Below the pieces are notes generated by a model. The model searched no databases. It was not told the origin of the DNA and was given only the letters and a program-made list of their open reading frames with translations. A stretch of DNA of 11,664 bases, taken from an uncultured Comamonadaceae bacterium (GTDB lineage Bacteria; Pseudomonadota; Gammaproteobacteria; Burkholderiales; Burkholderiaceae). This document shows positions 7,324 through 8,451 of the stretch, one piece after another. The stretch lies in the NCBI GenBank assembly GCA_946482115.1, contig CAMLQP010000072.1, positions 1 to 11,664 of the forward strand. The letters run 5' to 3'. Each line of letters starts with the position of its first letter. Position 1 is the stretch's first letter. A program made the position numbers and the translations under genes.

Positions 7324-7926
7324 TCAGGGAGAAAAATGGGCCAGGGCGGCGCGCGCGGTGGCGGCGTCGGCGGCCGGCGCGGCGCTGTCCGCAGGCACGC
7401 GCGCCAGGGTGGAAAAAGCGCGCGGCGCGGCGCGGTGGCCCCGGTCCGGGAACGGGGCCTCGTAAGCGGCGTCGCCGTCGGTGTCGGGCGGGGCCACGCT
7501 GAGGTGGCCCAGAAAGCGCCCGGGTGTTTCGTGGAACAGCAGCGCCCCGAGCGGATCACCGGCCTGCACCACCAGCACCGGGCGGCCCAGGTCCAGCCGC
7601 TCGATCAGCTCGCGCAGCACCTGGTGGTGCCAGGCGATGGTGTGGGCGGCCTCCTTCTTGGGTTTGTCACTTTTGCCAAAGCCGATCAGGTCGGGCACGA
7701 CCACGCGGTGACCGGCGGCGGCCAGCACCGGCAGCATCTCGCGGTAGGCGTAGCTCCAGGCCGGGCTGCCGTGCAGGCACAGCCAGGTCAGCGGTGCCGG
7801 GTCCGGGTCTGGCGGGCCTTCGTCCAGGTAGTGCAGGCGCAGGCCGGCCAGCGCGGGCAGGTCGCTCAGGTGGTTGGGCGCCCAGGGGTAGCCGGGCAGG
7901 CCGGCGAAGCGCTCGTCGGGCGTGCG
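7324..7926 (-). other. Eroded haloalkane-dehalogenase-like (HLD-I) domain inside the tadA product
   Basis: Residues 176-375 follow the order of Xanthobacter DhlA (310 residues), compared from memory: LRTPDERF, GLRLHYLDEG, LCLHGSPAWSY, VPDLIGFGKSDKP and LIERLDL are strong matches. The nucleophile segment, VVQDWGG in DhlA with Asp124 and Trp125, reads VVQAGDPLG here, so both are lost. Glu56 of HGEP is Ser. After GRFLGHLSV the text jumps to AYEAPFPD, skipping about 45 cap residues including Trp175. After RAFSTLARVPAD it jumps to TARAALAHFSP, which resembles the final helix of the family. About 70 residues carrying the catalytic Asp260 and His289 are skipped. The frame is intact throughout, so this is not a recent frameshift. 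Dehalogenase activity is not expected. A structural or partner-binding role is possible but not shown. Confidence 0.85.
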
Positions 7927-8451
7927 CAGCGCGTCGTCGCGCAGCGGGTGGGCGGCCAGGCGGGCCTGCTGCCGGCGCGCGGCAAAAAACGCCTGCAGCA
8001 CCTCGGCACAGTCGTCGGCCAGCACCCCGCCCTGCACCACCGTGTGGTGGTTGAGCTGCGGCAGCGCGAACAGGTCGAGCACCGAACCGGCGGCGCCGGT
8101 CTTGGGTTCGCGCGCGCCATACACCACGCGCGCCACGCGGGCGTGCAGCGCCGCCTGCGCGCACATGGCGCAGGGCTCCAGCGTCACGTGCAGTTCGCAG
8201 CCGTCCAGCCGGTAGTTGCCCAGCCGGCGGGCCGCCTCGCGCAGCACCTGCATCTCGGCGTGGGCGCTGGGGTCGTGGCTGGCCACCGGGCGGTTGTGGG
8301 CCTGGGCCAGCACCTCGGCGCTGCCGTCAGGCCGCCGGCGCACCAGCACCGCGCCCACCGGCACCTCGCCGGCCTCGGCGCCCTGGCGCGCCTGGGCCAG
8401 GGCCAGGCGCATCAGCGGGGTGTCATCGTCGCGGGTCGGCGGGGTGGTCAA
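7324..8451 (-). CDS. tadA: tRNA adenosine(34) deaminase TadA fused to a degenerate haloalkane-dehalogenase-like domain
   Basis: TadA converts A34 of tRNA-Arg(ACG) to inosine so that one tRNA reads several codons; it is normally essential and about 150-180 residues long. This product is 375 residues. Residues 14-165 are TadA: GEVPVGAVLV at 28-37, the zinc and proton-shuttle motif HAEM (His64, Glu66), PCAMC with zinc ligands Cys94 and Cys97, and ARVVYGAREPKTGA at 107-120. From about residue 176 (LRTPDERF) the protein continues as an alpha/beta hydrolase most like haloalkane dehalogenase, with no stop or plausible new start between the parts. I prefer TTG at 8451 because the ATG at 8412 would cut into the first TadA helix. 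No ribosome binding site is obvious at either. It is first in the - strand run, divergent from the GGDEF-EAL gene, and 4 bases before ldcA. The deaminase should be functional; the tail probably is not catalytic. Confidence 0.92.
   Translation of the reverse strand: MTTPPTRDDDTPLMRLALAQARQGAEAGEVPVGAVLVRRRPDGSAEVLAQAHNRPVASHDPSAHAEMQVLREAARRLGNYRLDGCELHVTLEPCAMCAQAALHARVARVVYGAREPKTGAAGSVLDLFALPQLNHHTVVQGGVLADDCAEVLQAFFAARRQQARLAAHPLRDDALRTPDERFAGLPGYPWAPNHLSDLPALAGLRLHYLDEGPPDPDPAPLTWLCLHGSPAWSYAYREMLPVLAAAGHRVVVPDLIGFGKSDKPKKEAAHTIAWHHQVLRELIERLDLGRPVLVVQAGDPLGALLFHETPGRFLGHLSVAPPDTDGDAAYEAPFPDRGHRAAPRAFSTLARVPADSAAPAADAATARAALAHFSP

Follow-up and report, generated by a model that had tools for sequence, protein, structure and literature searches.

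A tadA gene fused to a degenerate dehalogenase domain

The window, a stretch of 11,664 nucleotides (contig CAMLQP010000072.1 of an uncultured Comamonadaceae bacterium), carries on its minus strand a fused gene, tadA-pseudoHLD, at 7324-8451. As read from its sequence, it most likely encodes the tRNA A34 deaminase TadA of the organism, extended at its C-terminus by a pseudoenzyme of the haloalkane dehalogenase (HLD) type HLD-I. The uninterrupted 375-codon frame with a complete TadA described in the original prediction was confirmed as a single open frame running from 8451 to the stop codon TGA at 7326-7324; on the plus strand one frame is also open at the same coordinates, with a different translation. 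The start codon is either TTG at 8451 or the in-frame ATG at 8412, and a 99% identical homologue (P0003) begins at the ATG position.

The TadA domain comprises residues 14-164 (7960-8412), and residues 10-164 match the TadA family PRK10860 (NCBIfam) with 173.3 bits, above the curated cut-off of 150. The HAE and PCxxC zinc motif is present as HAEM (residues 64-67; 8251-8262) and PCAMC (residues 93-97; 8161-8175), its H, E and both C residues being kept in 121 aligned proteins. The structure model of the protein contains the TadA fold, and the tail comes after the last TadA helix. The tail has a linker, HPLRDDALRTP (residues 168-178; 7918-7950), which is conserved after catalytic loss, and the pseudo-HLD domain (residues 173-375; 7327-7935) retains the N-terminal half of an HLD-I and a shortened core.

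The HLD-I-like character of the tail, as originally predicted, holds for its similarity (residues 173-313 match the haloalkane dehalogenase family PRK00870) and fails for a working enzyme, since the catalytic residues are gone and the tail is gutted. The match scores 169 bits and misses the family cut-off of 265; an intact fusion (L300) scores 366.9. DhlA-type HLD-I enzymes and TadA are the best sequence matches among solved structures, and the tail aligns with DhlA residues 3-142 and with a short, weakly scored stretch (195-226). It is predicted to have the core alpha/beta-hydrolase fold of an HLD-I, and a Pfam scan (E<=0.1) returned Abhydrolase_1, Abhydrolase_6 and Hydrolase_4. The former nucleophile elbow reads VVQAGDPLG (residues 294-302; 7546-7572) where the intact relative P0005 has VVQDWGG, so that Ala occupies the nucleophile column; the columns of the acid and the His are gapped, and the cap is largely deleted. 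Judged by these residues, the HLD domain of the window is a pseudoenzyme and catalytically dead, which the original prediction had not noticed.

No ATG, GTG or TTG codon occurs across boundary residues 152-200 of the window gene (a GTG is present at 151), and separate translation of its tail was rejected on this ground. The predicted absence of a boundary start is therefore correct for this gene, and it does not extend to some relatives that have a junction ATG (see below). The same frame is found in the 99% identical homologue (362 amino acids, aa) and in an 82% identical one (359 aa), the latter aligning with deletions identical to those of the window protein, which makes a sequencing error unlikely; with the downstream gene also conserved, error and chimera were both rejected. 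A hidden stop codon was looked for and none was found.

Distribution and catalytic state of the fusions

Of the 7998 candidates scored in a protein search, 7470 passed E<=0.001, and the best 120 of these 7470 were 348-499 aa long, the size of fused proteins. A sample of 399 genomes from the family of genome G001 (titled Hydrogenophaga sp., the source of locus L026) was compared with the full-length fusion P0005, which had matches at E<=0.001 in 396 of them; the matches listed ranged from full length to C-terminally shortened, the weaker ones including stand-alone TadA. We fetched the shortened or divergent fused loci among the matches listed and part of the intact ones, and analysed 173 distinct fused frames, that of the window among them, each 320 aa or longer and most of the Comamonadaceae type; shorter frames were left out. 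Fused frames are present throughout a lineage, as the original prediction had thought possible, and each of the nearest relatives fetched (L001-L004, L026) has one fused gene, not a pair of separate ones.

A fusion was classed as intact when it had D-W at the nucleophile together with the acid D and the H. The catalytic residues are kept in 45 of the 173 fusions and not in the other 128, where the nucleophile Asp is gone in 120, the His is gone in 116 and the length is below 430 aa in 100. The nucleophile was replaced by P (43), G (36), A (11) and others, and the deletions differ in extent. Named examples of non-catalytic forms are the loci of Malikia spinosa (L007), Tepidimonas fonticaldi (L010) and Macromonas bipunctata (L029), and the proteins of Hydrogenophaga defluvii (P0012), Ramlibacter sp. 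XY19 (P0049) and an unclassified Acidovorax (P0103). A metagenome-assembled genome titled Chitinophaga pinensis (L006) has a Malikia-like fused tadA and is probably mislabelled or a contaminated bin. Eight full-length fusions (L123, L128-L134; 465-484 aa) have Gly for the nucleophile Asp and keep the acid Asp and the His in the alignment; they may stand at the beginning of the loss or have a different activity. In four long non-catalytic fusions (L242, L243, L246 and L247; 447-466 aa) the nucleophile column is the L of LDE or LDQ and the HLD similarity stops near position 378, perhaps through further remodelling.

Eighty genomes were re-searched at E<=1e-30. A single match was found in 75 (in at least one of them, G115, only TadA-sized), which indicates that the fused protein is generally the sole TadA at this threshold; in the remaining five, TadA and HLD matches were separate or frame-shifted. 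No second HLD beside a dead fusion was detected at E<=1e-30 in these 80 genomes. A Serpentinimonas genome (G005) has a non-catalytic fusion (L251/L028) and, elsewhere, a free intact HLD (L252/L084) that groups with the fused HLD clade. A second HLD is not a general feature of genomes with dead fusions. All 173 analysed frames reach a stop codon within the fetched stretch. Two of the fetched loci look disrupted, L192 (G305) with a TadA frame broken ahead of the HLD part and L196 (G075) with an in-frame stop inside the match; either may be an assembly error or a true disruption.

On a tree built on TadA and the N-half of the HLD (274 columns, 173 rows), the catalytic state needs 11 changes, at least four of which are forced by well-supported branches, against a shuffled mean of 40. 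The window, L026 and the intact L001-L004 together make up a set of six rows (support 99), and the non-catalytic L137 is sister to the intact L108 (support 100). A tree of TadA alone needs 24 changes and is poorly resolved; TadA-only trees are likewise too poorly resolved to separate stand-alone TadA as an ancestral state from stand-alone TadA as a lost one.

Selection on the remnant

Ratios of nonsynonymous to synonymous substitution (dN/dS) were pooled over disjoint pairs of 75-99% identity whose members belong to the same class, with 95% bootstrap intervals; because members share a class, much of the divergence probably post-dates the loss. In 26 truncated pairs, TadA gave 0.176 (0.151-0.201), the linker with the HLD N-half 0.255 (0.215-0.304) and, within that half, the GFGKSDKPK loop (P0005 positions 246-262) 0.065 (0.041-0.097). 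The APFPD motif (APFPDxGHRA) gave 0.162 (0.124-0.207), while the deleted-core region, 0.390 (0.329-0.459), and the tail, 0.566 (0.466-0.680), are relaxed. The corresponding values for 17 intact pairs are 0.202 (TadA), 0.154 (linker and HLD N-half), 0.065 (loop), 0.189 (core region), 0.091 (APFPD motif) and 0.300 (tail), and for seven long non-catalytic pairs 0.121, 0.194, 0.120, 0.346, 0.124 and 0.413, in the same order.

In the 100 truncated forms, the linker PLRxDALRTP (its variable place excepted), H222, W227, D249-L250, G252-F253-G254, S256 to K260, H265, H270, P367, P369-D370, G372-H373 and A375 are 87-100% conserved. D292, W293, G294, G295, N224 and P225, near-invariant in intact forms, are without a majority residue in these 100. 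In the window protein, the loop with its Lys-Lys pair, K265-K266, is PDLIGFGKSDKPKKE (residues 253-267; 7651-7695), and the second motif, APFPDRGHRAAPRAF (residues 332-346; 7414-7458), which holds G338-H339, is kept despite the deletion of the segment preceding it. The best reading of these patterns is that the linker, the Lys-Lys loop, the APFPDxGHRA segment and the folded core are kept by purifying selection.

Residues typical of the fusions

All 45 intact Comamonadaceae-type fusions have K-K or K-R after GFGxSDKP, and among the 128 non-catalytic ones K260 is found in 124 and K261, as K or R, in 124. A K at the first place of this pair occurs in none of 19 standalone HLDs (three distant HLDs were left out of this comparison) and in none of the 34 readable proteins of another fusion clade (described below). 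The G372-H373 pair shows a similar distribution: of the 128 non-catalytic fusions, 125 have the G and 104 the H, compared with 1 and 0 of the 34 proteins of the other clade and 0 and 5 of the 19 standalone HLDs. From this distribution, the two pairs track the fused state of the Comamonadaceae-type clade and not catalysis. Two free HLDs (L084 and L293), grouping with the Comamonadaceae-type HLDs, lack both pairs; whether they are escapes from fusions or sisters depends on a branch with a support of 60.

Origin of the fusion

In the order-level sample, four genomes (L299-L302) carry a fusion with an in-frame junction ATG behind a Shine-Dalgarno-like motif, near the start point of free HLD proteins. 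A protein identical to that of L300 (P0123) is named 'Burkholderiales bacterium', and 40 proteins (P0123-P0162), the first among the L300 matches listed, were taken as the other fusion clade. All 34 of these that were readable by pattern have the junction Met and DWGG. The Met, with the Shine-Dalgarno-like motif of the four loci, suggests two products from one frame, so that the HLD might also be made separately. Both fusion types fall in one clade of the HLD tree (98/96) that has three separate HLD frames inside and whose bootstrap had not settled. Their common placement suggests a single fusion event, which at first perhaps still yielded a separate HLD.

Among Comamonadaceae-type fusions, a junction ATG with a Shine-Dalgarno-like motif of at least four bases is found in 17 of 45 intact versus 2 of 128 non-catalytic forms; three control stretches gave 0, 0 and 0 of the 45 and 0, 5 and 6 of the 128. 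Looser rules weaken the contrast (any ATG, 22/45 versus 17/128; any start with the motif, 21/45 versus 25/128), and independent contrasts for 'ATG' and for 'any start with the motif', with four pairs each, gave no support (median p 1). As independent contrasts are too few, we treat the junction start as a property of clades and not as a demonstrated link with intact catalysis.

A proposed role for the remnant

We hold with moderate confidence, from the sequence patterns above, that the remnant is a pseudoenzyme kept as an accessory domain of TadA, probably for contact with TadA or with tRNA. The proposed history starts with a Burkholderiales ancestor in which tadA probably became joined to an HLD-I gene. 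A related clade retains the junction ATG, which might allow it to produce the HLD separately as well. Fused HLDs of the Comamonadaceae-type lineage carry the basic Lys-Lys loop and the GH motif, and in several sublineages the hydrolase chemistry would have been lost by substitution and internal in-frame deletion. The linker, the Lys-Lys loop, the APFPDxGHRA segment and the folded core would have been held by purifying selection, and these kept elements may form a contact surface with TadA or tRNA that acts on stability, dimer geometry or substrate engagement. Such a surface is proposed from the kept linker, basic pair and GH turn together with the analogy to ADAT2/ADAT3 and Ame1 (discussed below).

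Several observations weigh against this proposal. Constraint on the HLD N-half is weaker in truncated (0.255) than in intact (0.154) forms, which means that some of the former constraint has been lost. Taken as a whole, the remnant is not basic: the HLD part of non-catalytic forms has a median net charge of 0, and the C-terminal part of the window protein has a calculated isoelectric point of 6.0. The single-chain model of the window protein has a predicted template modelling score (pTM) of 0.70, with an uncertain domain orientation from which the facing of the Lys-Lys and GH pairs is not deducible; a model of the intact fusion P0005 gave a mean predicted local distance difference test score (pLDDT) of 86.2 and a pTM of 0.66. 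The ratio of 45 intact to 128 non-catalytic fusions is no census, because 46 other long matches (identity >=65%) were not fetched. The changes of state are presumed losses on a tree that carries no direction, and losses may be undercounted, since forms whose tail is lost entirely are classed as stand-alone. One stand-alone TadA of 159 aa (L276, G163) lies among the fused forms in TadA trees and is a probable reversion through secondary loss of the whole tail.

That reversion is the only one seen within the fused groups, which argues against a structural lock-in without benefit, where the remnant would be kept foldable because a misfolded tail would harm an essential TadA, the conserved residues being those needed for folding. 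The remnant is indeed predicted to fold well, the kept residues include G, H, W and D from the hydrolase core, and the deleted-core and tail regions are relaxed, all of which fits a lock-in. A stop codon after TadA would, however, solve the problem, and stand-alone TadA exists (24 rows, L192 left out); the absence of K-K or K-R from the 19 free HLDs further means that the pair is not needed for the fold as such. We regard a lock-in as unlikely, though it is the most serious of the alternatives. Hydrolase folds are sometimes re-used as receptors, and the remnant could bind a small molecule and tune TadA activity: in the 100 truncated forms, conservation is 93-100% at His222 and over most of the GFGxSDKP loop. 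The pocket-shaping nucleophile elbow and cap are, however, the most degraded parts, which leaves ligand sensing improbable.

The domain could instead be a useless appendage in neutral decay, observed at different stages of the process; this would account for the many replacements of the nucleophile and the varying extents of the deletions. Such decay is disfavoured by dN/dS values of 0.07-0.26 in the kept segments of truncated-class pairs, along with stop-terminated frames in all 173 analysed fusions (320 aa or longer) and signs of disruption noted at two fetched loci, L196 and L192, and is very improbable. Slightly less credible still is that translational coupling maintains the frame. The next gene, ldcA, encodes an LD-carboxypeptidase (Peptidase_S66, Pfam; 6357-7319, minus strand) and begins 4 nucleotides (nt) past the stop of the fusion. 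An ldcA gene lies within 300 nt downstream of 42 of 45 intact fusions, 111 of 128 non-catalytic fusions and 22 of 25 rows in the stand-alone class; in some cases there is an overlap of 1 or 4 nt with the upstream gene. Coupling needs a frame and not an amino-acid sequence, so it leaves the low dN/dS and the Lys-Lys and GH pairs unexplained, and the neighbour is the same for stand-alone TadA, which has no tail. That the tail is still a haloalkane dehalogenase or another hydrolase has the least to recommend it: the HLD-I similarity (residues 173-314) and the catalytic residues kept in 45 of 173 fusions are set against a window domain without nucleophile, acid and His that scores 169 against 265 bits.

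Relation to known systems

The window protein resembles bacterial TadA in its complete deaminase domain (HAE, PCxxC), its passing of the curated cut-off and the TadA fold of its model. It differs in length, stand-alone frames in our set being 143-213 aa (L192 left out), whereas the window protein adds about 200 residues of a former hydrolase. From HLD-I enzymes (DhlA, DpaA; PRK00870) it differs by the absence of nucleophile, acid and His, by a cap that is mostly deleted and by a score below the family cut-off.

A known analogue is Ame1 of Fusarium, an alpha/beta-hydrolase-superfamily protein which makes Tad2-Tad3 edit mRNA; Ser and Ser-His mutants of its triad are still functional, and it is a separate DUF726 protein that binds the N-terminal domain of Tad3, Asp589 being required for binding (PMC11087585). 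Ame1 and the fusion thus share an alpha/beta-hydrolase-superfamily protein that serves, or in the window would serve, a tRNA-type adenosine deaminase. They differ in that Ame1 is separate and its effect on editing was demonstrated, whereas in the fusion such an effect is presumed; common descent of the two is unsupported, and a Pfam scan of the window tail at E<=0.1 gave no match to DUF726. A bolder version of our proposal, that bacteria independently evolved an Ame1 equivalent by fusing a dead alpha/beta-hydrolase domain to TadA, so that the fused TadA would engage RNA differently and edit tRNAs or mRNAs that the stand-alone form does not, or only the full tRNA, appears doubtful to us.

In eukaryotes, the C-terminal KR-motif of ADAT2 and the N-terminal domain of ADAT3 bind tRNA (PMC9643335). 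These too are extra basic elements on TadA-type deaminases; unlike the fusion, they have no relation to hydrolases mentioned in the available portion of that paper, and the tRNA contact demonstrated there is suspected here. A C-terminal extension is likewise present on the TadA of Streptococcus pyogenes, for which a possible role in binding or positioning tRNA was suggested (PMC11472039); in the accessible text this addition to a bacterial TadA is, in contrast to the window tail, not described as a hydrolase domain.

Among the matches, long proteins already bear the name TadA in databases and one is called 'putative bifunctional protein : haloalkane dehalogenase', so the fusion as such is on record. 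What is added here is a TadA with a candidate pseudoenzyme accessory domain. Among titles in the open-access literature on the fusion and on HLD pseudoenzymes, no paper on a TadA-HLD fusion was found, which is no proof of absence. The fusions form a series of states (with a junction start, intact, and dead but constrained) in which an enzyme seems to have become an accessory domain of an RNA editor. Fused proteins go under the name TadA or that of the bifunctional protein, and many of them have no dehalogenase residues, which calls for caution in annotation. Engineered TadA serves in DNA base editors (entry 6vpc, ABE8e), and a natural domain that appears to be kept by selection is therefore a testable lead on tuning substrate engagement.

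Neighbouring genes

No tRNA genes were found in the window. The remaining neighbours of the fused gene (79-11647) look ordinary and include a Mur-ligase-type protein, a penicillin amidase, an aldehyde dehydrogenase, a PAS-GGDEF-EAL protein and an FMN-binding protein besides the LD-carboxypeptidase; a glutamate racemase and DnaB were identified by eye only.
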